Part shown: piece after piece, positions 6,363 through 29,102 of the stretch
Numbering within the stretch: the first letter of the stretch is position 1
How the letters are laid out: each line of letters opens with the position of its first letter
Origin: Arabidopsis thaliana
Lineage: Eukaryota > Streptophyta > Magnoliopsida > Brassicales > Brassicaceae
Length of the DNA: 64,000 nucleotides
Direction: 5' to 3'
Assembly: GCF_000001735.4 (NCBI RefSeq)
Contig: NC_003075.7
Span: forward strand, 14,261,001-14,325,000
The notes under the pieces: generated by a model
Database searches by the model: none
Told to the model about the DNA's origin: nothing
The model's input: the letters and a program-made list of their open reading frames with translations, nothing else
Position numbers and translations under genes: made by a program

Positions 6363-6390
6363 TTATCATTTTATTTTTGATATTTCCAGC

Positions 6391-6904
6391 TTTTTTTTCT
6401 TTGTCAGGCTTTTCCAGTTTTTTTTCCTCCTAAATTGACATGGTTTTATTTTTTTTGTACAAAAAATTGACATGTTTTTTTTTTAATACAAAAATTGACA
6501 TGTTAAGACTTAAGACTAAAGAGGAAATTGGAAATTGGAAATTTGAATATTATAAAATAAAATTATCTTATGTTGTAAAATTTTAATGGCATGAAAATAT
6601 GTTACTTATGTAAAAATAAAATAATGAAAACAAACATGGTTAATAATATTGAAAAGCTACAACATGAATAAATATATACTTTGATTGACTCATAAGCAAT
6701 AAAGTTACATGGTTTTTTTTTTATTATTTCTGATGCTATTATTCATAGTTTTATAAGTTTGAAAAATAAATTAAAAAGGATCATTAACAATTCAAAGGAT
6801 AAATAGACTTGTTTCTCTCTTTTTAATCGTCATATTAAATACCATAAGATGTCGAATTTTTCAACCTAATGTCTACGTTGATGATGTTGTGGCTATCCAC
6901 CGTG
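6391..6904 (+). repeat. Left arm of ~0.5 kb inverted repeat
   Basis: This stretch reappears in reverse complement at 11535-12040, roughly 90 percent identical by eye. Shared landmarks in order are CTTTGTCAGGCTTTTCCAG, the GACATGTTAAGACTTAAGACT block, a GACTCATAAGCAATAAAGTTACATG block, and GTTGTGGCTATCCACCGTG at the inner end. I see no open frame. It may be a copy of a non-autonomous DNA element family (MITE or Helitron-like), but I cannot recognise the family. Confidence 0.85.
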
Positions 6905-7414
6905 AGACGGTGAAGAAGACCCCTCACCGTCTCCCACATACAAAATCGCCGCCGCCTATCACATTGTTTCAAAGAAACTCCTCCTCACCGACTTGCTCTC
7001 AATAGAAGTGAACTCCCATCTCCCAACCCTAGTCCCAGGAGCCTCCATCATCGTTACCAACAATTCACGATAATACAACTCTAAATATTATTCTCTCAGC
7101 TTCAACTTCTCATGAAAATCATATATGTTTTGTTACTCTTCAAAAATCCAAGGAATAAAATGATAGAAAAAAATATATTCTTAGAGCTCTTGGTGATTTC
7201 ATACTTGTCTTGATTGATATCACAATATTCAGAACAAGTAATCACAAGTAGAAGACAAGCTTTAAAAAGAGGAAGAAGAAGAGACTTGTAGTTATTGCAT
7301 TGAGAACAAGTAATCACAGATTCACAGTATAGTCGTCATCAAAGGACTTGAAGTCAACCCTACGGTAACTTTTTATTGAGCAGCAGAGGATGAGCATTCC
7401 GGTTCAGGTTTACT
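6905..7414. other. Spacer between inverted-repeat arm and UPF0725 gene
   Basis: No gene called. 6930-7075 is less AT-rich than its surroundings and one + frame stays open for about 45 codons, so it might be a captured gene scrap, but I recognise no family. The remainder overlaps the probable 3' UTR of the UPF0725 gene. Confidence 0.5.
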
Positions 7415-8885
7415 CTAGGGCGGTTCATCCTCCCCAATTAAATCGCTTGGTATGGCTTGCCAAGAGTCAACTTCTAGACGAATGTGTCCCGGTTTTCCAT
7501 CCATGGCTTTCCGTACTATTGTTTGGTACTCGACATGCTTACCACTCGGATGATGATCACCACTGCCCTTGAAACCCATGTAGAAGATAGCGTTGTTGGC
7601 CTTGAGCTTCAAGTGCGGCGACTCTTCACAGCTCTTCCGAGTCTGTACAATTACATACTTGATCTTTAATGGTAGAAAACTCCTCACCAGCGAGCTCTTT
7701 ATATGATACAAAATACATTTCATTTGGTTAGTGAAGAGAAGTGGAGGCAAACATAACATCACGTCTTTCAAGAGAAAAAAGGAAGGTAAAAGAACATATA
7801 CCGCATGCCATTTCCAGTTGGAGTACAATGCAATCTCAGCATACAGATGAAGCCACTCATTTTCTAGAATGTCTGATTCTTGCACCTGTGATGTGTAACA
7901 TGTTGTGAATCATCAATGGAAAACTATCGTATGCTATTCCAAAACCAGATTACGTACGAAAAATTACCACATAGTATTCATCCTTGGCTGCAGCCAACAA
8001 ATCTTTTGTCAACCACTTAGGCAGTTTACCTTTGTAGTAAACATCGATGGCCTCCTCTTCCCATCCCCATATCCACCCACGTCCAATACAAGTATTATGA
8101 GGGCCAGTAGGACCTGAACACCACAACACCCAAACGATAAATAAAAGCTAAACCGAAGGAAGATACATGACATGACAACAACAACAACAACAACAACAAT
8201 GTTGAGATACTACACATACCTTTTAATCTAGCAATATATGTCTCTACCACAAGGTATCCATGTTCTGAAGTTTGATACCATTCACTTACGTACGTTTGAA
8301 AAGTGCATGGAGAGTTGTTGTATGTGTCTATTGCCTCCAACGTTATGTAGTAGTAGTCCCCAGAACTTACCCCAATGTTATTAGTGTTGTACTTGGGAAT
8401 GCACATGAGTTTGAGGTTGGTTCCCTAAAAGTAGAGATAGAATTCAAACATTAAATAAAGGAACTACGTCACGAAGAAATCACTATAAAAACTATTACAA
8501 ACAAAAAATTAAAAAAAATTAGAAACAATGGAAGATATTGTTTGTTTACCTCGTGAAGAAGATTGTAACAGTGAAGTCCCAATCTTCCAAAAAGTTCGAT
8601 ATCATAAGTATAAGCATTCTCATCTTTCAATGGACAGGGCTTTATCCCAGCATATCTAAAGTAATCAACATCAAAACCCTGTCCACGTTCACAATTCCAA
8701 GAATGTATCATCAGACTAATCCCAAATTTTGAGAAAAGCACCGATCAATCTAATTATGACGAAAGCAACTTAGAAAGAGAGAGAGAGAGAGTTATTACAT
8801 CGGACTCTTCAACTTGCCGTCTATACACTTTTTCTTCTTCAGGGTCCATTTCAATATCACTCTCGCTACTATCGTTCTCCGACAT
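7415..8885 (-). CDS. UPF0725 (DUF626) family protein
   Basis: Six coding exons can be read on the minus strand: 8799-8885, 8550-8678, 8220-8424, 7968-8113, 7802-7885 and 7415-about 7696, all with GT/AG borders and matching phases, giving about 310 aa. The protein begins with an acidic segment (MSENDSSESD...EEE) then the DUF626 core with the motif series GFDVDYFRYAG, YTYDIELFGRLGLHCYN, GTNLKL, YYITLEA and a C-terminal PSDLIGEDEPP. This is a plant-specific family expanded in Brassicaceae with no established biochemical function. The last acceptor is uncertain: a site at 7697-7698 is in phase, but another in-phase acceptor about 36 nt further on exists. No signal peptide or membrane segment is seen. 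I think this is At4g28920. Confidence 0.88.
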
Positions 8886-9224
8886 TCTCCCCAAACCCCA
8901 GTATCACCTGAACACTAATTTTCTTGGAAATTCCTCAAATCTATCTGTTCGAACGAGGTAGCAAAATATGTTCTTCGAGACTATATATAAAGGAACTTGA
9001 TGATTTTGGATGGCCACATGGCGTTTTACTATTCACTCCCTCTTATAAATTGAAATTTATTCCCAACAATGATGAGAATGGTAATTATTATTCACTCTTA
9101 AGATAAGAAATCATTTAAAATTTTAATAATGTTTTGGGGATTTATTAAAATTTTGTTTTATTTTTTTATGATCACCACATGGCATAATAAATCTTGGGAA
9201 AATATCCCTAAACAATTAGGACGA
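8886..9224. other. Promoter side of UPF0725 gene
   Basis: AT-rich spacer with no coding feature; it must hold the promoter and leader of the minus-strand UPF0725 gene. Confidence 0.55.
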
Positions 9225-9556
9225 GATATTTTACCATAAAGATATTTAAACAAGAAATTATTGAGATTTCATATAGGTAACTACACTTTGGTAAATTTTA
9301 ATGAAAAACATTATGTAAACTATAGTGATATTGAAACATTTTAATTTATCACAATCTATAAACGTATCTAGTAATATCTCATTTAACAATATTGATGATG
9401 ATGGATGTTTTTTTTTGAAATAACAACTAGTTTTTTAAAGAAATTTAATTTCTTTACTTAATATCAAATTTTACATTTCTATATAAAATTCGTCAAATTT
9501 TAATTGATTTTTAGTAATTAACTTAACGTAGTGATGTAGAAACCTTTATTTGATTT
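9225..9556 (+). repeat. Direct repeat copy 1 (~0.33 kb)
   Basis: Sequence starting GATATTTTACCATAAAG and ending near GTGATGTAGAAAC recurs in the same orientation at 12063-12362, with small indels. AT-rich, no open frame. Possibly a non-autonomous transposon fragment duplicated together with the nearby inverted repeat. Confidence 0.85.
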
Positions 9557-10071
9557 AGCTACGACACAGTAAACTCCTCTTCTGAAGTTTGCAGATTGCC
9601 CTTACATCTGCCAAAATGACCGAGTTTGCGATCCTGACTCCGAAGTTTGGAGATGAACCGCCGCAGCGTGAAGCATCAGCTCATAAGGTTTTGAAGGCCA
9701 AAGGAGAACCATGGATGGATTGTCGGCACACATTTGCTTAGAAGTTGACTCTTTGTCTAGAAGTTTACTGTGAAACAACGAAATCGATTTTTTCTAGCTT
9801 TTTATTTCTTATTTTTGATATAGGTTTTAAATACTAATTCCACATGTGCTTTTTGAGACAATTTCTCTTTTGTTTATGTTTTAATAAATTAGCAAAACAC
9901 TAAAAGGTTAATAAGTACTAAATGAGTTGGCCAACTTGAATTGGTCAAAAGTTGTAAGCCTAATCCCAATTGTAAAAAAAAAGAAAAAAAGTGGAGAAGG
10001 TCTCTGTATATAATAAACACAAACTTCTACCATCATTCACAAACTTAAAAGCCTTAAATTAATCTCCAACT
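9557..10071. other. Spacer upstream of secreted orphan gene
   Basis: 9590-9760 has higher GC than its flanks and looks like a gene scrap without an open frame I can assign. The 3' part carries the TATA box of the next gene. Confidence 0.5.
10007..10016 (+). promoter_or_regulatory. TATA box of secreted orphan gene
   Basis: TATATAATAA lies 56 bases before the ATG at 10072, leaving room for a short leader of about 25-30 bases. Confidence 0.6.
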
Positions 10072-10578
10072 ATGTTTATGGCCATAAAAATTTCCACCCT
10101 TTTCCTCCTCTTCCTTTTGGTTGAACCATGCACCCCAAGATACATACCAGCAGATCTACATGAGGCCAACGAAGAAGGGAGACAAGTACTAAAGGTACCA
10201 GATGAATCAAAGAGGCGCTACCTCCGTTTATTTAAATGGAAGGTGGAAGATTTGCAACGTGAAGCAGATGAGAAATACCCACTCTGGAAATCTACCAATC
10301 ACTTGGACCGATCTTTGTTCCTACTAGAGAAAGCTCAGGATTATGTTCAGCTTTGGGACACGTGGAGGAAGGGCACATCTTTTGCCGGAAACCCATACGG
10401 TGACTTGCGGAACAATGTTCAAGGTGACTTGTGGCCTAAACACTATGATTACTGTCGTCAATCTGAGGGCACAAATCTCTTGACTTACTTGATGTATGAT
10501 TTTTGTCGTCAATCTGAGGGTGCAAATCTCCTCAAGTACATGACCTATGGCCTCAGTCCAGAAGCTGACTTGGTTTAG
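10072..10578 (+). CDS. Small secreted protein of unknown function
   Basis: A single exon encodes 168 aa. Residues 1-22 are a clear signal peptide (basic start then FLLFLLV core, probable cut near CTPRY), so the mature product is likely secreted. The mature chain is rich in charged and aromatic residues (K, R, E, D, W, Y), with a predicted helical stretch around residues 35-75. The C-terminal third contains an imperfect tandem repeat: CRQSEGTNLLTYLMYD followed by CRQSEGANLLKYMTYG. There is no transmembrane segment after the signal and no catalytic motif I know. It sits inside the 4.6 kb interval bracketed by an inverted repeat. I think this is the unannotated-function locus At4g28930. An in-frame alternative start at codon 3 (MAIKIS) would only shorten the signal peptide. 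Confidence 0.8.
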   Translation: MFMAIKISTLFLLFLLVEPCTPRYIPADLHEANEEGRQVLKVPDESKRRYLRLFKWKVEDLQREADEKYPLWKSTNHLDRSLFLLEKAQDYVQLWDTWRKGTSFAGNPYGDLRNNVQGDLWPKHYDYCRQSEGTNLLTYLMYDFCRQSEGANLLKYMTYGLSPEADLV

Positions 10579-11534
10579 TTCCTTAATTTTTTTCTTTTAA
10601 TTCTTTTTTTTCTTTTTTTTAGTAGGCTTTTCGTCTTGGTTTTGAGATTTAATTTGTTTCCAAAAGAGACATTATTATTATAACAATAAAAATAAACAAC
10701 TAATTGTGATCGGAGAATATGAATTGTAATCAGAGATGTGTTCGTTAAACAAGAGCAATTTTCATAACTTATTTTCCTTTATGATGAATATATAAGAAAG
10801 AAATCACAAGCGCACCATAACTTATTTATGCTCCAGCTGCCTTTGATCTTCGAAAGCAATCCTTATTTATGAGCTCGGCTAAGGGTTGGATTGATATTCA
10901 AAAGTGATTTAGGATAACTCTATTAACGATAAGTAGACTTAATCAAAGATTTAATGTTATCAAACAATATTATTATTTATTTGATAATTATATTCTGTTA
11001 AGATATTTTAGTGAGGATACTTTAGTAATTTATAATTGAAAAAAAACTTTAAATAGTTTTTTCAAAGGCAATTTAAAAGACCGTATTGCCTACCAATTTT
11101 TTATTTAAAGACTGTATTTTTCATAAATAAATAAGAATGTAGGGTATTTCCCCCAATTTAATTTTTTAATTAGTCAATGAGTAATATCCGTTAATTATCC
11201 GTTATTATTTCTTTCGTCCCAAACCTCTGGAGACTCTTTTGACTTATGATAACCTTTCTTGCCCTGACTGATGGTACATACATAAGTCAATTTAGCTTTT
11301 GTTATCTTCGGTGAGAATTAAAAGGACAAAAAAAAAACGCTCCAAAACCTATTTACTAGGGTACATTTTTTACCAAATCTTAAATTCAACGCAAGATCAT
11401 GTGTTTACGGTTTACCCACCAAGCAACCGCTGAACACGAGATTGTCACAAACGTAATGATAATCGTCCAACCTCTCCAGCCCATAGAGTCCGTGTGGTTT
11501 TCGCCGTGTGTTGTGAAGTGATACGGTGCCGATA
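10579..11534. other. AT-rich spacer with chimeric scrap
   Basis: No gene seen. The sequence TAAGGGTTGGATTGATATT near 10876-10896 is repeated at 12051-12070, where the right inverted-repeat arm meets the second direct-repeat copy. 11400-11530 is slightly GC-richer without an assignable frame. Confidence 0.6.
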
Positions 11535-12040
11535 CACGGTGGATAGCCACAACATCGTCGACATAGACATTAGGTTGAAAAATTCGACATCTTCTGATAT
11601 TTAATATGACGATTAAAAAAAAAGAAATAAGTCTATTTATCCTTGGAATTATTAATGACGCTTTTTAATTTATTTTTCAAACTAATAAAACTATGAATAA
11701 TAGCATCAGAAATCATAAAAAAAAAAACATGTAACTTTATTGCTTATGAGTCAATCAAAGTATATATTTATTTATGTTGTAGCTTTTCAATATTATTAAT
11801 CATGTTTGTTTTCATTTTTTTATTTTTACATCAGTAACATATTTTCATGCCATTAAAATTTTATAACATAAGATAATTTTATTTTATAATATTCAAATTT
11901 CCAATTTCATCTTTAGTCTTAAGTCTTAACATGTCAATTTTTGTATTAAAAAAAAAACATGTCAATTTTTTGTACAAAAAAAAAACCATGTCAGTTTAGG
12001 AGGAAAAAAAACTGGAAAAGCCTGACAAAGAAAAAAAAAC
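11535..12040 (-). repeat. Right arm of ~0.5 kb inverted repeat
   Basis: Reverse complement of 6391-6904. The inner end is CACGGTGGATAGCCACAAC and the outer end TGGAAAAGCCTGACAAAG. The arms are 4.6 kb apart. See the left arm for shared landmarks. Confidence 0.85.
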
Positions 12041-12062
12041 CATGTCAGTTAAGGGTTGGATT

Positions 12063-19171: not shown

Positions 19172-19182
19172 CCCCCTGCGGT
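19172..19182 (+). repeat. Left target-site duplication of MULE
   Basis: CCCCCTGCGGT, exactly repeated at 27307-27317. A 9-11 bp duplication is typical of Mutator-like elements. Confidence 0.85.
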
Positions 19183-19527
19183 GAGAGCTCACCTCTTATG
19201 CCACTATTGGAAAAGAAATAATCACTCGTGCCATTCTTATGTTTAGAATAATATTATTGATTTTTACTAAAATCGAAAAATGAGGAAATGACGAAAAACC
19301 TTTGCGAAACCACGAAAACTTAATTTGTTGGGCTCGGGCCCAAAGAAAAATGTAAATACTCGGCCCAGTTGTATTATTTACCCTACAAACTACAGAAAAA
19401 ACCTAAGTAAAAACCTAATTCTTCCCCCTTTTCACTTCTCGACTTCTTCCTCTTCTCTCCGTCGTCGTCTTCTCTTCTCTCGTCTCCGACGACACCACCA
19501 ATTTCAGTTCGTCTTTGTCTCTTTCAT

Positions 19528-21864
19528 ATGGCTAGAGTAAAAGACTCATCTGGAGAATATGAATCAACAGAAGAGGAAGCCGGAGAAATTCAGCCTACAA
19601 CCGGCGATTGTGACGCCGCCGATTTGGGTAATTCAAACGCCGTCGCATGGGAATCAAATGACGATCTTTCAGACCCAAATGCCGATTCTTGTGCAGAAGA
19701 AGAAGAGGCAACGAATGCAGTTGTTCAACATGATGATGGAGCAAATAAGGTATGATAGAAGACCGTTATTTTTTTGATTAGGCTCGTTTTAGGATATTAT
19801 GCATGCATTGGTAAATGATTGGATTTGTGAATGGTGCTTCAGATAAAACAAGTAGTACAACTAGGTCGTAAATTTGTGAATGGTCATTCAGGAACAAGTA
19901 GTACAACTAGGTAGTTAATGTGAAATTGAAAGTATTTTGAATTGAATATGCAGGATGATGGTGATGATGATAACCTGCCGCAGAATATGCAGGATGGTGA
20001 TGATGATCTTCAGCCGCAGAATATGCAGGATGATGATGATGATGATGATGATAATCAACCATTGCCGCCAGAAGTTATGTACTTTGATCCAACTACCTAC
20101 ACGAAGGTGTGTAAGATAGGAACGAGGTGTCAGTTGGTACAAACAGTGGAATTTATAGAGACTTTGGATGCAGAACTGAAGTGGTTTAAGAATCATGACC
20201 AATTTAAGCACATATTCCACATGCCTAAGGAGCCCAATCACATGATTCAAGGCATGTGGATGCTTATGGTTCGCACGGCTAAGACAGAATTGGCGAGAGA
20301 GTGTTGGTTTGTTGTCAATGGAGTACCTATAAGGTACTCAATTAGAGAGCATGCATTGTTGACCGGTTTGAACTGCCGTGAGTACCCAAAAAACTATAAG
20401 ACTTTAGGCAGTTTGAAGTTTGTTGAGAAGTTGTTTAAGAGGACTGAGGACATCAAGATTAAAGACGTGGAAGAGAAGCTGGAAGAGTTTAAGAGTGAGA
20501 AGTCTACTGCTAGGTTGAAGTTGACAATTCTGTTATTCTTAGCTAAGGTTATGAAAGCTGATTCTAAAGGGGATTCGAAGATAGAGGAGTTGCTTCTTAG
20601 GATTGTGGATAATGTCAGAGCTTGTGAGACATTCCCGTGGGGACGTTTTTCTTTTGAGCAGTGTATGGAAGGGGTGCGGAGAGTAATGAAGAACATGAAA
20701 GGTGTGGTGAAACCCAAGGCACAAACTGCTTTTTATGGATTTATTACTCCACTTGAGGTAAGTAGTCGAGTAAATTATATGAGTGGCTAGATTTTGTTAT
20801 TGTGAACTTGCATTTACTTTTATGTTTTTGTGTCTAGATTCTGGCATTTGAGTGCATTCCGCAGCTTGGGAAGAGATTTAGAGAAGCTGTACCTGCAGAC
20901 AAGGAATGTCCAAGAATGTGCAAGCACAAGTTCAGTGAAAGTTGCATGAAGGGATTTACTTTGGAAGAAATAAATGAAGCACTTGGAGATATAACGGTTA
21001 GCTTTGTTCTCTTGAAATCTATGTTTATAATCTTTGTGGTGTTTGAAATATATGTTTACTTGACAGGATATTTCAAGCATCTTGGAACCTGATATGGATG
21101 AGAGAAAAATGTTGTCACGCGTTGTAGAGAAGCATGTTGATGATGGTATTGGATATATCGATCCGATTGTTGATAGTTGGAGAGAGGCTTATCGTAGAGA
21201 AAAAGAAGATTTTCTGGCGTAGTCTCTACCAAGCGGACATTGATGTAGACGTATTGAAACTGTTGATGATGTTCCAGCTGTACCTGAACCTGAAATCCCT
21301 GGGACATCGATTCTCTCGTTCAAGGAAGCTATGGAGAGAGGATTTGACAAGCTCACGGACAAGCTTGCTGTGATGGATAGCGAAATCAAGCGGATTTGTG
21401 TGAGAGTACAAGGAATAGAGGAATATGTGGCAGATCAGCTTGAGAAAGAGGCAGAAAAAGACAAATATGAAGATATGCGTCCTGGTTCAGCTGCTGATTT
21501 TGTGCCACCGTCTTATCAGCCAAGGGATACTCAGAGCAAGGCCTTGGTTATTCACAGTGGAATCCGTGACCCAGCACCTCCAACTATTGAGTCTCTAAGT
21601 GAGTTTTTGTTGAACTTTTGTGTAGTGATGCTTTCACAATAGTTCTTAGATGTTTGGTTACATATTTTTGTAGGTGATGGCAGCGATGAGTCCGATGAAG
21701 AGGATAAGAAGAAGAAGAAGAAGAAGCAGATATCGAAGAAGAAGAGAAAGCATGTTGGTCCTACTCTGGAATCTGGGGAAAAACGTGGAAGGAAACCTTC
21801 CAAGTATAAGGGGGAAGAGTTTACAACTGAGGGGAAGCAAACGAGAAAGAGACAGAAGAATTAG
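19528..21864 (+). pseudogene. DUF1985-domain gene of the MULE, probably disrupted
   Basis: Exons read as 19528-19749, 19954-20757, 20838-20996, 21067-21598 and 21674-21864. The start is acidic and low complexity (DDGDDD/NLPQNMQD repeats), followed by a DUF1985 domain (about residues 115-260 of the product) with CWFVVNGVPIRYSIREHALLTGLNC-type core, then a module with FECIPQLGKRFREAVP typical of related Arabidopsis transposon genes, and a lysine-rich nuclear-localisation-like tail (KKKKKKKQISKKKRKH). The fourth exon carries in-frame stops at 21220 and 21238, while a neighbouring frame across about 21185-21245 gives a family-like FWRSLYQADI segment, so two nearby compensating indels are likely. 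A truncated product of about 446 aa remains possible. No Ulp1 protease domain is visible. Function unknown; such proteins occur mainly in transposons. Confidence 0.75.
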
Positions 21865-22754
21865 GACTTTGAAAATTCTTTCTTGCTTATGTGTGTGTGT
21901 GGACTCTTAGGTGTCTGTCAAAATAGGACTTTCTTTTTGTGTATTTGGGAATGTTATGCGTAGTTTATGTGTAGAGGACAAACTTATTTTCTGAAATGGT
22001 TTATGTGTGTTAGGATTTTATTAAAATCAAAACGTTTGGCTAAGTTGTCCCGGTTGGCCGGTCAATAATACAAGAGTAGCTAAGTTGTCCCAGTTGGCCG
22101 GTCAATACACATAACTTAAAATACAAGAGTAGCTAAGTTGTCCCAGTTGGCCGGTCAATACACAACTTAAAATACAAGAGTAGCTAAGTTGACCCAGTTA
22201 GCCGGGACACCCAGAGACAGAGTAGCTCGTCAGCTCTTCAAGCTCCTTAGCTCGTCCTCAAGCTCCTCAGTTCGTCCTCAAAGCTCCTCAGCTCGTCTTC
22301 AAGCTCTTCCCATCACAGCGACCATCTCCTCGCCTAGCTGTCAGCTAGTCAGCTCGTCCGACTCCTCGTCTAGCTATCAGCTCATCCCTCAACTACAAAA
22401 CTCATCTACCTCCTCGCCTAGCGGCAGTTCGTCCATTGACTGCATAGTCCACCTATCTCGTCGCCCAGCTCGTCTATACCTTCAGCAGACAACTCGGTTT
22501 GTCCAATTCGCCTCTCTACCACGGTTCATCCAGCTCGTCCGAGCTCACTTATTCTAATATGAACTACGTGTGGCTTGATCCCATTTTTCGTACTTGTGTG
22601 ATTCGTGCATCAACATTTTCGTACACATAACTTAAAATACAAGAGTAGCTAAGTTGTCCCACTTGGCCGGTCAATACACAACTTAAAATACAAGAGTAAC
22701 ATATTTAGGTTCAAATGTCATACACCATCCTCAATAACATAAATCACATCATAA
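21865..22754. repeat. Noncoding repeat region of the MULE with GTTGGCCGG array
   Basis: 22038-22204 has four tandem units of about 40-50 bases, each with TAGCTAAGTTGTCCCAGTTG followed by GCCGGTCAATACAC and CTTAAAATACAAGAG. The unit recurs at 22622-22697. Serine-codon-like TCCTC/AGCTC repeats follow at 22220-22480. Further short GTTGGCC motifs lie at about 23753 and 24174. No gene is supported here; the long + frame across 22189-22557 is low-complexity. Confidence 0.8.
22263..22342 (+). repeat. Left arm of 80-bp inverted repeat in MULE
   Basis: By direct base-by-base comparison this is the reverse complement of 23491-23570 with a single mismatch (79/80). The arms flank the GRF zinc-finger gene with about 1.15 kb between them. 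Confidence 0.92.
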
Positions 22755-23262
22755 TCACCATGTAGAAAGTAATGCCCTAAGCCTATCAATCTCGACTTCT
22801 TTGGCGAGTAACCTTTCTTTAAGGGTTTCAATTTCGCCTTGCATGAGATGAATAGTTTCCCGGATGGACTCCAAAGCATGATTGCATGCTAGTTGTCCAT
22901 GTCTTAGTGCGGAATCAAGTTTGTGATTTACCTTCTCAAGCTCCTCAGTTACCGCCTGATCCCACCACTGAATAAGGTGGTTTCGGGACTCGTACTCTTC
23001 AGCCTGCGAAAGAGAGAAGACTTCATAAATATAATTCACTTGTACTTTGTTGTTCCAATGAAATGAAAACACAATAACTTACTTTAAGCATTGGGCATTT
23101 GTAGACTCTGTCGCCTTGCCTGTAACCAGTTTTGCACACTTCAAGTTTTACAGGCTTACCACAAAAACATTTTTCTGGAACCCCCCAATTTGCATCGGCA
23201 TTCGCCTCTCCACTATTCCAACTAGCTTCGGACGTGGATGGTTGAGAGTAACTATAGGGCAT
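22755..23262 (-). CDS. GRF-type zinc-finger, coiled-coil protein of the MULE
   Basis: Two exons, complement(join(22755..23003, 23083..23262)), join in phase to 142 aa. Residues 32-57 hold the GRF zinc finger (KCFCGKPVKLEVCKTG ... GDRVYKCPM), followed after a short gap by QWWDQAV, the usual Trp-Trp pair of the family. Residues 78-140 form a heptad-like coiled coil (ELEKVNHKL, IHLMQGEIETLKERL). GRF fingers bind single-stranded nucleic acid in DNA-repair proteins such as APE2; small Arabidopsis versions with a coiled coil are common and often transposon-linked. Here the gene lies inside the MULE, antisense to the DUF1985 gene and co-oriented with the transposase, and is bracketed by an 80-bp inverted repeat. 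Coding frame appears intact. Function in transposition or silencing escape is speculation. Confidence 0.8.
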
Positions 23263-23309
23263 CTACAGAACAGAGAAAGAAAGAGATATGAATCATGAAC
23301 GCTATAAAC

Positions 23310-23433
23310 CCTAGATCTACTAATTACGGCGGCTAGAAACCCGTAAGAAAGCCTAGATCTACTAATTACGGCGGCTAGAAACCCGTAAGAAACCCTAGAT
23401 CTACTAATTACGGCGGCTAGAAACCCTTTAGAA
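23310..23433 (-). repeat. Three tandem 42-bp repeats in the leader of the GRF gene
   Basis: The unit CCTAGATCTACTAATTACGG + CGGCTAGAAACCCGTAAGAAA begins at 23310, 23352 and 23394 (42-base period), the third copy diverging at its end. Lies just upstream of the GRF gene start at 23262, so probably in its 5' UTR or promoter. It carries AAACCCTAG-like telo-box sequences. Confidence 0.85.
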
Positions 23434-23490
23434 GAAGAGAGAAGAACGAGAGAGAGGAAGAACTCCAGTGCATGTAATACCTTGGTTGTC

Positions 23491-23570
23491 GACAGCTAGG
23501 CGAGGAGATGGTCGCTGTGATGGGAAGAGCTTGAAGACGAGCTGAGGAGCTTTGAGGACGATCTGAGGAG
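23491..23570 (-). repeat. Right arm of 80-bp inverted repeat in MULE
   Basis: Reverse complement of 22263-22342 with one mismatch. Located upstream of the GRF gene. Confidence 0.92.
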
Positions 23571-24214
23571 AGAAGTGAAGAAGAGAGAAGAACGAGAGAA
23601 GCGAAATAGAAGAGAGAGTGAGAATAAATAGGTAGAAACTTTGTAGTGTGAACGCAATAATCGTAGTGTGAACGCGACTTCGTGGGGTCTATTTTTAAAA
23701 AAATTTATTTATTAGAATATTCAGAATACACATAGTTGTATGTATATGTACAGTTGGCCGGAATCACAAACAGTTGAACTATTCTAAATTTTGTGTTTTT
23801 GAAGTTGAATCTGAAAAACCAACTCATTTTTTTAGTTGGTCCCATAAGTTTTAACATATTAATGGATTTTAATAAGTTTTGATAGAATCATATTTAGTAA
23901 ATATCTGTTTTCATACATAACGTATGTACATTATACAATCATGAACTATATGTTCCTTGTCATACATAGGTGATTTATTAGGAAACCAGTTTATGATCAA
24001 GTTTATTAATAACAATGTTGTAATATCATATTTTGGATTTATTCAATGTTTAGATGTTGATAATAGCTGAAAATATTGAGAATTATAATGCAAATAATAT
24101 AGTACATCAGACTTACAAATAATATAATGCAAATACAAATGAACTTAGTTGTATTGGTTGAACCCTTTCTGCAGTTGGCCAGGTTGTTCCGGTTGAACCC
24201 TTTCTGCATCAGAC
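23571..24214. other. MULE interior spacer
   Basis: No gene. Contains a near-duplicate GGTTGAACCCTTTCTGCA at about 24157-24175 and 24190-24207 and isolated GTTGGCC motifs. The 3' UTRs of the transposase gene are expected at its right edge. Confidence 0.6.
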
Positions 24215-26626
24215 TTAATCTTCCTCAGGCTGCAGCCAAGCCTCCAAGTTTATTCCAGGTTGCGATTTTCTCCTCTTTCGCGCTTCACCAGCTGATGGAA
24301 ACCGCTTCTCTTGATTTCGTCCTGGTCCTTTTGGTGTGTATTCCGGCGGAAAGGCAACTAACTCTTTAATATGGGCAGGAAGAACCCAAACCGACTCATG
24401 TGGGACTACATACAACGTCCGGTAATAGGCCAATGACCAACTATCTATCAAGTAATACACAGAGCAGAGTCCGTAGATGGTTGTATCCGCATTTCTCCCT
24501 TCCTTGCGGGCGAGGTGCCTTGCTGCGGCCATAGCATGGACACACGGGATCTTGTCTATATCAAAACATTTGCATGAACAACTTTTCATTTTCAAATCCA
24601 CCAGAAAACTTACCGAGTTGAGATCAATCACGTTGTATTCTTGGTTGTAACTGTTAAGCTCAAACACAGTTAATTTGGCTGCAACTTGACATCTAATGTG
24701 CAATATGTTCTCCACAGTAGGCACAACTTGTGCTGTGATTGGACAAGAACCTGAAGCTTGCCTATGCTCGTTGAACCATTCAGAAAACTTAGAAATCATC
24801 ACATCAATCATTGGTAACAAGTGGTATTTTCTCGCTTTTTTAAACACACCATTAATGGACTCCGCAGAATTACTAGTGTCAATGTTATACTTGTCTCCTT
24901 TAAAATGGCACCTCGACCATTTCTCAAACCCTACTTTCACAAGAAAGTCAGCAGCTTTAGGCCATAAACTTGTAAAATGACCAAACTCTTTCTCGAACTC
25001 ACTCTCAGTATATGCATGAGCACAATCCCTGAACTTGACAGCAGCTCCATCCTTGTCAATTGTCACACGATCTCTCATGTTTTGACACAAATGCCATATA
25101 CAAGCTGCATGAAGCGCATTCGGGTACACCGTCTTGACAGCCTTCTTTATGCTTTGATGCCTATCACTAATAAAGACCAATCCGGGAACATCCGAATATA
25201 CAGTTTTCAGCTTTTCTAAGAACCAAATCCAACTTACATCCTTCTCGCTATCAATGATTCCAAACGCAAGTGGATAATGATGATGATTAGGATCTTGTGC
25301 TGTTGCAATAACCAACATCCCACCATACACAGTTTTAAGATGAGTTGCATCCACAACTATCACTTTCCGCATTGCCCTAAAACCTTCAATGCAAGCGCCT
25401 AATGCAATGAAGAGGTACTTGAACTTTTTCTCTCCTTCCAACTCCACATAAGTTACTGTCCCTGGATTTACCTTCTCTAACATGTAAAGATAAGAAAATA
25501 ACATCGTGTAGCTTCTTTCCGGAGTCCCTCGCACATCACTAACATGTAGCATTTTGCCTCTTAAGGCAGTGGAGTATGAACAATGCACCCCAAGTCTTCC
25601 TCTTACAATCGACATAATGTTTTTTGGAGTTGGGGTCTCTAAATTTCCGGGATAATCACAATGTAAAACCGATGCTATTAATCTTGGTGTGCCTCGCTGT
25701 ATACTGTTGCTTGTAGTCTCAACACTCCGAGAGCATGTATGCATCTTTCTATGCACTCTAACACTCCAAAAATGAGATTTTTTAGTTCTCGCAACTCTTA
25801 GATACCAAGTACACCCTTTAGAAGCTTGGCGGCATCGTAGCATAAGTCTCAACGGGTCTGACTTAATAGTATAGACTCCAAAAACTTCTTTCTTTGCAGC
25901 TCTGTTAACCAATTCCCACACAGCCTCCCTTGAACAAAATTCTTGACCAATTTCAATACCCGTACCATCATCCCATTCTATAACCTGCGGAGTAACTTCT
26001 ACACTTCGTGGAATATCGTGAATATCATCATAATCAATCCTATCATCCTCATCTTGTTCCTCAACAGAATTCACCGGCCTTTCCATCGGCCTTTCGATAG
26101 CCACGATCTCCGTACCTACTACATTCTCACAATCATTCACATCATTATCATATCCATCATGCACCATCTCACATACTTCATTTAAAACATCATCCTCTAT
26201 TACATTTACACCAACTGAACTTCGACGCTCCGGTACAGAAATTTCCTCTCTCCTCTCAACTCCTATACCATTTAATTCCTCCACATGCAAAACAGGAATC
26301 CGACTCTCTTCATCAGATTCTGTTAAAAATATGAAGACATCCTCATCATTTACAATATATGTCTCTCTCCTAACTTTAGACAGATTGTAACTCAGTTTCA
26401 ACTTGACAGAAGCTTCATCAATCGCAACCTTCTTCATGATCTTGTCAACTAACATCGAATAGCTAATCTTCTCCAAACTACTCGTCTTAAACGATATAAC
26501 ATATAGTGAATTTTTACCAATCCACTCATTCACTTCAGAATAGTATCCTCCAAAGTCAAAATGTACCTTAGTGTGGATCTTCTTCTTCATCGCTCCTGAA
26601 AATACAACCAGTTCAACTCCAATCAA
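24215..26626 (-). CDS. MuDR/MULE transposase, uninterrupted 803 aa
   Basis: One open frame encodes 803 aa. An N-terminal PB1-like region (about 15-105) is followed by an acidic linker, the MuDR N-terminal zinc-binding domain (about 222-300, with LRCRQASKGCTWYLR and a final HTC), and the MULE catalytic core (about 420-600). The DDE triad is visible as D426 (VVDATHLK), D488 (ISDRHQSIK) and E589 (NSAESING), with the C/H motif CIWHLCQNM at 509-517. A SWIM zinc finger CKC...CVH sits at 685-697 and a basic RKRRK segment at 783-787. It would bind the element ends and catalyse cut-and-paste movement in the nucleus. The start is either 26626 or the M at codon 13 (26590); a TTTTCAG acceptor-like sequence just upstream of the latter suggests a leader intron. 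Nothing breaks the frame. Confidence 0.93.
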   Translation of the reverse strand: MIGVELVVFSGAMKKKIHTKVHFDFGGYYSEVNEWIGKNSLYVISFKTSSLEKISYSMLVDKIMKKVAIDEASVKLKLSYNLSKVRRETYIVNDEDVFIFLTESDEESRIPVLHVEELNGIGVERREEISVPERRSSVGVNVIEDDVLNEVCEMVHDGYDNDVNDCENVVGTEIVAIERPMERPVNSVEEQDEDDRIDYDDIHDIPRSVEVTPQVIEWDDGTGIEIGQEFCSREAVWELVNRAAKKEVFGVYTIKSDPLRLMLRCRQASKGCTWYLRVARTKKSHFWSVRVHRKMHTCSRSVETTSNSIQRGTPRLIASVLHCDYPGNLETPTPKNIMSIVRGRLGVHCSYSTALRGKMLHVSDVRGTPERSYTMLFSYLYMLEKVNPGTVTYVELEGEKKFKYLFIALGACIEGFRAMRKVIVVDATHLKTVYGGMLVIATAQDPNHHHYPLAFGIIDSEKDVSWIWFLEKLKTVYSDVPGLVFISDRHQSIKKAVKTVYPNALHAACIWHLCQNMRDRVTIDKDGAAVKFRDCAHAYTESEFEKEFGHFTSLWPKAADFLVKVGFEKWSRCHFKGDKYNIDTSNSAESINGVFKKARKYHLLPMIDVMISKFSEWFNEHRQASGSCPITAQVVPTVENILHIRCQVAAKLTVFELNSYNQEYNVIDLNSVSFLVDLKMKSCSCKCFDIDKIPCVHAMAAARHLARKEGRNADTTIYGLCSVYYLIDSWSLAYYRTLYVVPHESVWVLPAHIKELVAFPPEYTPKGPGRNQEKRFPSAGEARKRRKSQPGINLEAWLQPEED

Positions 26627-27306
26627 ACATTTTAATAGTTATACCACATGTACTCTTATCATACGTTGAAATCAATCTCTCGTCGCACTCGTCTCTACTG
26701 AACCTAATTCGTTACCTTTCAATTGATTTCCAATGTTAATACATACCTATTCGTTAAACTAATTGGTTAATCTAAACTTTGCAAACACAAACCCCCCAAA
26801 TCTTTAATATGAAATCTCGGAATTCAAATTCAACTCACATTCAACCTACATTCCTTTGCTCATCACCTCAAATAACGTTTCGGCAACCTCTAATCGATTA
26901 CTCTTTACTTTGCAAACCAATCATCAAACTATCAAATTGAATCGAGCTGGGAATTATATAGAATTCAAAATCCCAATCTAAAATCACAATGCACCAATGT
27001 CAAAGGAAATATGAGAAGAAACTGACCTAATTCGTGGCTTTTACGCCGGATTTCAAGTCGGCGGCATGAGGAAATCGATGGTGGCCGACGAAGAAGATGA
27101 ACGTCGACCAAAGAAGAAGAACACGACGACGAAGAGGAGAATCTCCGAACTCGATTTTCTTTATTTAGCTTTTGAATTTCTTTTTCATTTTTTTAATCAA
27201 CTCATTAAGGGTACAACTGGTATATCACATTTTCGGTGGCATTCAGATTAACTTATGGCAGTCCAGATCAGTTTTTTCAAAAAAGTGGCATAAGTGATAA
27301 AAGTCC

Positions 27307-27317
27307 CCCCCTGCGGT
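27307..27317 (+). repeat. Right target-site duplication of MULE
   Basis: CCCCCTGCGGT, identical to 19172-19182. Two more C residues precede it, so the exact border may shift by one or two bases. Confidence 0.85.
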
Positions 27318-27470: not shown

Positions 27471-29102
27471 ATGGATAAACAACCGGCGACCAGTTGGAGT
27501 ATCCATACCCGGCCGGAGATAATCGCCAAGTACGAGATCTTCGAGCGAGTCGGATCCGGAGCTTACGCCGACGTTTACAGAGCTCGCCGTCTCTCCGACG
27601 GTCTAATCGTCGCGCTCAAGGAGATTTTCGATTACCAATCTGCGTTCCGGGAGATTGACGCGCTCACCATCCTCAATGGATCTCCTAATGTAGTTGTTAT
27701 GCACGAATACTTCTGGCGTGAGGAAGAGAACGCTGTGCTTGTGCTTGAGTTTCTTAGGTCGGATCTCGCTGCGGTGATCCGAGATGGTAAGAGGAAGAAG
27801 AAGGTAGAAGGAGGGGATGGATTCTCGGTTGGGGAGATTAAGAGATGGATGATTCAGATTTTAACCGGTGTTGATGCTTGTCATCGGAATTTGATTGTAC
27901 ATAGAGATTTGAAGCCTGGGAATATGTTGATTTCTGATGATGGAGTTCTTAAGCTTGCTGATTTTGGTCAGGTGAGATTATGATTGTTACTGATTGTGTT
28001 AGTTATTTCATTGTTTGATGCACAAATATGAGAAACCTCTGAATGAAAAATGCTTGGTTTGCTTGAAATTTGGAAGAGTTAGTGTAATCAAGTGGCTAGA
28101 CCTTATCATTTAGTGTAATCTATGAGTTTCTAAATGTGTGTTGGCTTCTTGGTTCATATACAGGCTAGGATACTCATGGAGCATGATATTGTAGCTTCAG
28201 ATGAAAACCAACAAGCTTACAAACTGGAAGACAAAGATGGAGAAACCAGCGAACCACCAGAAGTTATTCCTGATTATGAGAACTCACCTAGGCAAGGGTC
28301 TGATGGTCAGGAACGGGAAGCGATGAGTAAAGACGAGTACTTCCGACAGGTGGAAGAGCTCAAGGCTAAACAGGTTGTTAGAGATGATACTGATAAGGAC
28401 TCGAATGTGCATGATGGAGACATATCTTGCCTTGCAACGTGCACTGTTAGTGAAATGGATGATGATCTCGGTAGGAACTCGTTTTCTTACGATGCTGACG
28501 AAGCAGTGGATGATACACAGGGTTTGATGACATCTTGTGTGGGAACCCGATGGTTTAGGCCACCAGAACTGCTCTATGGATCTACGATGTATGGGTTAGA
28601 GGTCGATCTATGGTCGCTTGGTTGTGTGTTTGCAGAACTCTTGTCTCTTGAGCCTTTGTTCCCAGGAATTTCAGATATTGATCAGATCAGCAGAGTGACC
28701 AATGTGCTGGGAAATTTAAATGAAGAGGTCTGGCCTGGTTGTGTTGATCTTCCAGACTACAAGTCAATCTCATTTGCTAAAGTAGAATCTCCTCTTGGTA
28801 TTGAAGGATGCCTTCCCAACCATTCAGGGGATGTGATATCGCTGCTCAAGAAGCTTATCTGTTATGATCCAGCTAGTAGAGCTACTACTATGGAGATGCT
28901 GAATGACAAATATTTAAGTGAAGAGCCTCTTCCAGTTCCAGTTTCAGAGCTCTATGTGCCTCCGACAATGAGTGGACCAGATGAGGATTCTCCGAGAAAG
29001 TGGAATGATTACAGAGAAATGGATTCAGATTCAGATTTTGATGGCTTTGGACCCATGAATGTAAAGCCTACCAGTAGTGGATTTACAATAGAATTCCCCT
29101 GA
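27471..29102 (+). CDS. CDKF-1: CDKF;1 (CAK1AT), CDK-activating kinase-activating kinase
   Basis: Two exons (27471-27971, 28164-29102) encode 479 aa, the length of CDKF;1. Kinase motifs are the glycine loop VGSGAYADVY, VALKE (ATP lysine), HRDLKPGN and DFGQ (164-167). Between DFG and the T-loop lies an acidic insert of about 115 aa (residues 172-286), a hallmark of this plant-specific kinase. The T-loop TSCVGTRWFRPPE follows; its first Thr is residue 290, the phosphorylation site known from published work. CDKF;1 phosphorylates and activates CDKD kinases (and CDKs), linking cell-cycle control and RNA polymerase II phosphorylation; mutants have defective postembryonic cell division and expansion. 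The gene starts 153 bases beyond the transposon target-site duplication, so that insertion sits in its promoter. Matches At4g28980. Confidence 0.97.

Follow-up and report, generated by a model that had tools for sequence, protein, structure and literature searches.

A probable VANDAL-type MULE with VANC6-type motifs and a frameshifted VANC-type gene, inserted upstream of a CDK-type kinase gene of Arabidopsis thaliana

The segment at nt 19172–27317 of this Arabidopsis thaliana DNA raises two questions: what kind of transposon it is, and whether such a copy may still be released from silencing. The window, as the term is used here, is the whole 64-kb stretch that was analysed. A sequence-only reading had described the segment as a complete-looking Mutator-like element (MULE). 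That description stands: the ends, the target duplication and an open transposase frame were confirmed, and a VANDAL-type architecture was recognised as well. We consider, with a probability of roughly 0.85, that the element is a VANDAL-type MULE of the VANC6-motif group that inserted upstream of a CDK-type kinase gene, has lost self-release, and may be releasable in trans. The gain over the plain MULE label lies in the VANDAL/VANC identity, the frameshift in DUF287, the VANC6-type arrays and the site before a CDK-type kinase. The element is presumably annotated already in the reference genome. We take its locus number to be AT4G28970, under which no literature was found.

The borders are defined by two identical copies of CCCCCTGCGGT, at nt 19172–19182 on the left and nt 27307–27317 on the right. 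This 11-bp sequence occurs exactly twice within the 64 kb, against a mean of 0.00 in 100 shuffles, and the exact target duplication claimed from the letters is thereby confirmed. Since the pair sits at 19172 and 27307, the element proper is taken as nt 19183–27306, a length of 8,124 bp. A duplication of 9 or 10 bp is also possible because two further Cs precede the right copy; the 11-bp reading is preferred because no other length puts both end motifs in register. Target duplications of MULEs range from 8 to 11 bp (PMC6446971, in excerpt), and the exact 11-bp pair at both edges falls within this range.

Inside the duplications, the left end (nt 19183–19234, plus strand) and the right end (nt 27255–27306, minus strand) each carry CTTATGCCACT 12 bp from the edge. 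Each also has TGCCA at positions 17 and 47, the copy at position 17 being part of CTTATGCCACT, and a third TGCCA at position 66 is found at the right end only. The arms share an ungapped 40-nt stretch identical at 28/40 (70% complementary), an identity that was reached by none of 2,000,000 random pairs of 40-mer windows. Local alignment of the 150-bp ends gave a score that was equalled or beaten in 86 of 2000 first-order resamplings (225 of 2000 when the scoring was looser). Of random window pairs, about 2000 once a few close ones had been left out, 16 reached it. Because this alignment alone is unimpressive and the two ends agree at only 4/12 positions over their outer 12 bp, the case for terminal inverted repeats (TIRs) rests on register; register and duplication together carry it, and the TIR is degenerate. 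MULEs possess either TIRs or ends of a recognised non-TIR or degenerate type, and this element, with 28/40 in register, is of the degenerate type.

The window also contains a second, different element-like structure with long inverted repeats, at nt 6391–12054. The repeats comprise 395 nt at 93%, 107 nt at 92% and 63 nt at 97%; a distance of 4,630 nt separates the longest pair. They enclose a minus-strand open stretch (nt 7415–7909) matching Pfam protein_MS5 (E 7.6e-28). A 9-bp match, TTGATATTT, at nt 6377 and 12061 may be the target duplication of this structure or could be due to chance. The structure is possibly a gene-carrying element of the long-TIR kind. Separately, a frame at nt 1631–2704 resembles by eye the last part of the polyprotein of a Copia retrotransposon, with no Pfam match at E 0.001.

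Within the 8,124-bp element, the transposase frame on the minus strand (nt 24215–26626) is open throughout. The uninterrupted 803-aa transposase of the earlier reading is thus upheld, with the qualification that 803 aa are counted from a TTG; from the first ATG (nt 26590) the VANA-type product has 791 aa, encoded by nt 24215–26590. Domains were called at the curated Pfam cut-offs, which Plant_all_beta (E 2.6e-36), MULE (PF10551, E 8.7e-22) and SWIM (PF04434, E 5.2e-9) all pass, so that the transposase domain characteristic of MULEs is present. The MuDR DNA-binding model scored 19.1 on the transposase, below its cut-off of 25. The motifs VVDATH, FISDRHQ, CIWHLC and AESINGVF occur in this order along the protein, and we take them to be the catalytic D-D-E and the C/H motif. 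A weak alignment (E 0.005, 159 query residues) relates the catalytic region to a solved bacterial Mutator-family transposase, 6xg8, a very distant relative that is presumably IS256-like. This alignment pairs like residues at the second D, at the C/H motif and at the E, and the first D lies outside the aligned stretch. Single-sequence structure prediction of the transposase (mean pLDDT 32.2) was too poor for use. Relatives were sought in viral contigs (0 of 1 pattern match confirmed) and in prokaryote genome contigs (0 of 17); since the collections searched were viral and prokaryote, these misses carry no information.

The VANC-type gene lies on the plus strand at nt 19528–21864. Our splice model, with GT..AG borders, has exons at nt 19528–19749, 19954–20757, 20838–20996, 21067–21598 and 21674–21864. 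Both DUF1985 (E 5.1e-27) and DUF287 (E 1e-15) were found on a single spliced piece of 446 aa that extends to the first stop. The same pair is shown for VANC anti-silencing proteins in the legend to Fig. 5 of PMC5735166 (in excerpt). The gene thus has the domain pair expected of a VANDAL, though a frameshift shortens DUF287. In the lesion zone (nt 21182–21243, plus strand), DUF287 changes frame, and the gene's own frame meets the stops TAG at 21220 and TGA at 21241. Positions 1–42 of the 55-position DUF287 profile match in the gene's frame, and positions 40–55 match in the neighbouring frame. Since the domain crosses from one frame into another, the lesion would be a frameshift and not an intron, and we regard the evidence for a frameshift within DUF287 as good. 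Beyond 21241 the gene's frame reopens, through to the spliced end at 21864; a second shift is therefore likely. If translation halted at the first stop, the protein would be deprived of its lysine-rich tail and of the last part of DUF287.

The open frame beyond the stops could instead be taken to mean that the gene is unbroken, the stop-bearing stretch being either an assembly error or an intron that our splice model missed. At E 0.0015 and 19.3 bits (cut-off 21), the second frame matches DUF287 weakly, and a single sequence is compatible with an assembly error. Yet the profile continues in the neighbouring frame where the match in the gene's own frame gives out, which argues for a coding stretch, and introns as short as about 50 nt would be unusual. 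We consider an unbroken gene very unlikely and retain the frameshift, which agrees with the earlier observation that one accessory gene is damaged. An autonomous, self-releasing VANDAL has an intact VANC, and the frameshift in DUF287 with its two stops deprives this copy of one. Structure prediction of the DUF1985 exon (mean pLDDT 39.5) was too poor for use, and none of 8 pattern matches to this exon in viral contigs was confirmed, a result made uninformative by the viral nature of the collection. Literature joining DUF1985, MULE and Arabidopsis was not found.

Between the two larger genes lies a small intact gene on the minus strand (nt 22755–23262), with exons at nt 23262–23083 and 23003–22755 and one intron. 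Its 142-aa product contains a coiled coil and shows weak similarity to a GRF zinc finger and to DUF730, both below cut-off. By position, the gene is possibly VANB. It is flanked by the arms of an 80-bp inverted repeat (nt 22263–22342, plus strand; nt 23491–23570, minus strand), which are 99% complementary, lie 1,148 nt apart, and are paired in the predicted minus-strand fold, the dot-bracket string being read by eye. A read-through transcript over both arms would form a long hairpin, and we conjecture that it might be a source of small RNAs against the element. No target duplication that would make the inverted repeat a nested element was seen by eye around it. Upstream of the small gene, nt 23306–23433 hold three tandem copies of 42 bp (95% matches), with no exact VANC6 motif.

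The repeats elsewhere in the element bear on the group to which it belongs. In VANDAL6 and its relatives, VANC6 targets are described by AGTTGTCC and AGTTGTAC, which occur in tandem repeats of non-coding DNA (PMC5735166, in excerpt), and the target groups are VANDAL6, 7, 8, 17 and AT9TSD1 (PMC5735166 and PMC10398659, both in excerpt). Exact copies of the two motifs number 8 in the element, compared with 5 in the other 55.9 kb of the window. They occupy five separate places, and 7 of the 8 are non-coding. Two minus-strand copies of AGTTGTAC (19855 and 19901) lie in a 46-bp tandem repeat in intron 1 of the VANC-type gene (nt 19823–19919). Three copies of AGTTGTCC (22043, 22083 and 22136) lie in a tandem repeat of about 53 bp where the 3′ end of the VANC-type gene faces that of the small gene (nt 22039–22205). 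A fourth (22652) is in an outlying repeat unit (nt 22622–22698) with 99% identity to its reference copy, and a fifth (nt 22891–22898, plus strand) is in the coding exon of the small gene, the sole exact copy in coding DNA. The remaining copy, an exact AGTTGTAC on the minus strand, is upstream of the transposase gene (nt 27211–27218). In the intergenic array, AGTTGGCC, a copy with one mismatch, follows two of the exact motifs by 9 bp (22092 and 22145). The element thus shows the enrichment of AGTTGTCC/AGTTGTAC in non-coding tandem repeats that is typical of the VANC6 group.

As a control, 3,359 letter rearrangements of the motif were counted in the same element. None had 8 copies (the best had 6), none occupied five places, and 3 occupied four. 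A first-order Markov model, which leaves tandem duplication outside, gave a mean of 0.53 and a maximum of 4 in 2000 simulations. The AGTTGT(A/C)C copies might still have arisen through tandem duplication alone and not serve VANC6 as docking sites, as 6 of the 8 are within the two arrays or the outlying unit, and copies inside tandem arrays are not mutually independent. Against this, the five places include intron 1 of the VANC-type gene, the array between genes and the region upstream of the transposase, a spread that no rearrangement equals. They also resemble the published locations of VANC21 and VANC6 motifs: the VANC6 motifs reside in non-coding tandem repeats, and those of VANC21 in the introns of VANC21 and VANB21 and upstream of VANA21 (PMC5735166, in excerpt). 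A mere by-product is consequently quite unlikely in our estimation, and the copies are read as candidate VANC6 docking sites. The VANC21 motif YAGTATTAY is absent from the element and occurs twice elsewhere in the window, so the arrays expected of VANDAL21 are missing.

Three genes make up the plan: the transposase with Plant_all_beta, MULE and SWIM, the small gene with its coiled coil, and the VANC-type gene with DUF1985 and DUF287. Together with the domains and the motifs, this plan supports the narrowing of a complete MULE to the VANDAL type, with families 6, 7, 8 or 17 as candidates. VANDAL6, 7, 8 and 17 likewise have a VANC with DUF1985 and DUF287 and motifs in non-coding tandem repeats (PMC5735166, in excerpt). 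The element differs from them in its frameshifted DUF287; VANDAL7 and 8 commonly have pseudogene copies (PMC5735166, in excerpt). TIRs of VANDALs in general are absent or short and degenerate, as here (PMC6446971, in excerpt). Nevertheless, the tabulated VANDALs have target duplications of 9 bp (or not indicated) and TIRs of 46–174 bp (PMC6446971, in excerpt), whereas this element has an 11-bp duplication and a degenerate TIR, which counts against the VANDAL placement. The three-gene plan of VANA, VANB and VANC is shared with VANDAL21/Hiun, the third gene being matched by position only. Unlike this element, Hiun is mobile and has a working VANC, according to literature available in excerpt, and the element is without the YAGTATTAY of that family. 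Classical long-TIR Mutators (MuDR, AtMu) also have a MULE transposase with a SWIM finger and a duplication within 8–11 bp. A place among them was rejected, the TIR here being about 40 degenerate bp that start 12 bp inside the edge.

A long open transposase frame next to host genes may also suggest a domesticated MULE gene, retained by the host amid transposon remnants, and MULE-derived host genes such as FHY3 and FAR1 are known (PMC7385966, in excerpt). In this element, however, both ends, the target duplication, the small gene, the VANC-type gene and the motif arrays all remain. Domesticated transposase genes usually lose their ends. With the full architecture still in place, we rejected domestication as extremely improbable, and the VANDAL-type element is kept as the preferred reading.

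The age of the insertion was estimated from assumed substitution and indel rates and under assumed neutrality, both of which are weak points. At these rates, the probability that the 11-bp pair is still unchanged would be 0.83 after 1 Myr, falling to 0.40 after 5 Myr. Identity of the duplications therefore says little about youth. The open frames appear to be a better clock: the neutral half-life of the transposase frame would be near 0.18 Myr, and the 95% upper bound for the transposase and the small gene both being intact is about 0.65 Myr, if neutral. The recent insertion proposed earlier thus receives weak support from the open frames under this model, and little from the duplication; the VANC frame is already lost. 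CpG observed/expected is 0.71 in the element (0.61–0.67 in its genes), 0.82 in the left flank and 0.76 in the right, and ranges from 0.52 to 1.24 in three host frames. TpG/CpA is 1.15–1.28 in the element genes compared with 1.02–1.13 in the flanks, and is not clearly above the host frames measured. Since the host frames span the values of the element, base composition does not decide its age.

An old, fixed insertion common to A. lyrata, with a transposase open by chance, would accord with the survival of identical duplications for millions of years, the frameshift and stops in the VANC-type gene, and the mismatched outermost 12 bp of the ends. The short half-life of the transposase frame under neutral decay and the open frame of the small gene speak against it, and we hold it to be unlikely. 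Some residual mobility is possible for the element. As its own anti-silencing gene is broken, movement would need outside help, either a loss of methylation or a VANC6-type protein from another copy.

The host gene to the right starts with an ATG at 27471, 154 bp past the right duplication, and its first open stretch (nt 27471–27983, plus strand) encodes a CDK-type protein kinase (Pkinase, E 1.3e-29). Against sequences of solved structures, 59 matches had E <=1e-18; KIN28 takes the first two places, and CDKs make up most of the others listed. We take the gene to be CDKF;1, At4g28980. The locus of CDKF;1 is given as At4g28980 in PMC6852550 (in excerpt), and the excerpt of this CDKF paper contains no word beginning with "transpos". 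Among the titles and abstracts listed for VANDAL, MULE and CDKF, none describes the insertion. Its site just upstream of the kinase start agrees with the preference of VANDALs, VANDAL21/Hiun among them, for promoters and 5′ UTRs, which VANDALs in met1 plants also follow (PMC12312487, in excerpt). The element might contribute to, or govern, the promoter of this important cell-cycle kinase, so that VANC6, a selfish anti-silencing protein acting in trans on the motifs, or RNA-directed DNA methylation (RdDM) directed against them would alter kinase expression; this is very doubtful.

We propose that the transposase would bind the ends and move the element, leaving the 11-bp duplication. In the plant, the element is expected from the literature to be methylated and silent, with the non-coding repeats as the target. 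VANDALs are silenced in their non-coding parts by RdDM, this silencing is lifted where VANC binds, and the regions targeted by VANC6 are enriched 3.96-fold for RdDM targets (PMC10398659, in excerpt). In a normal VANDAL, the element's own VANC binds such repeats and lifts silencing. With VANC broken in DUF287, this copy would become a potential passenger, in which the transposase is present and self-release is lost. Its docking motifs could be used in trans by the VANC6 of a sister element, or release might come through loss of methylation.

As a transposon the element is ordinary, yet it may be useful as a natural test piece that separates cis sites from the trans factor. With its transposase and VANC6-type motifs but a broken VANC, such a copy would be expected to remain silent by itself and to be reactivated only if given VANC6. 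The host start codon is close enough to the right border that the locus would also test the spill-over of anti-silencing onto a host gene.
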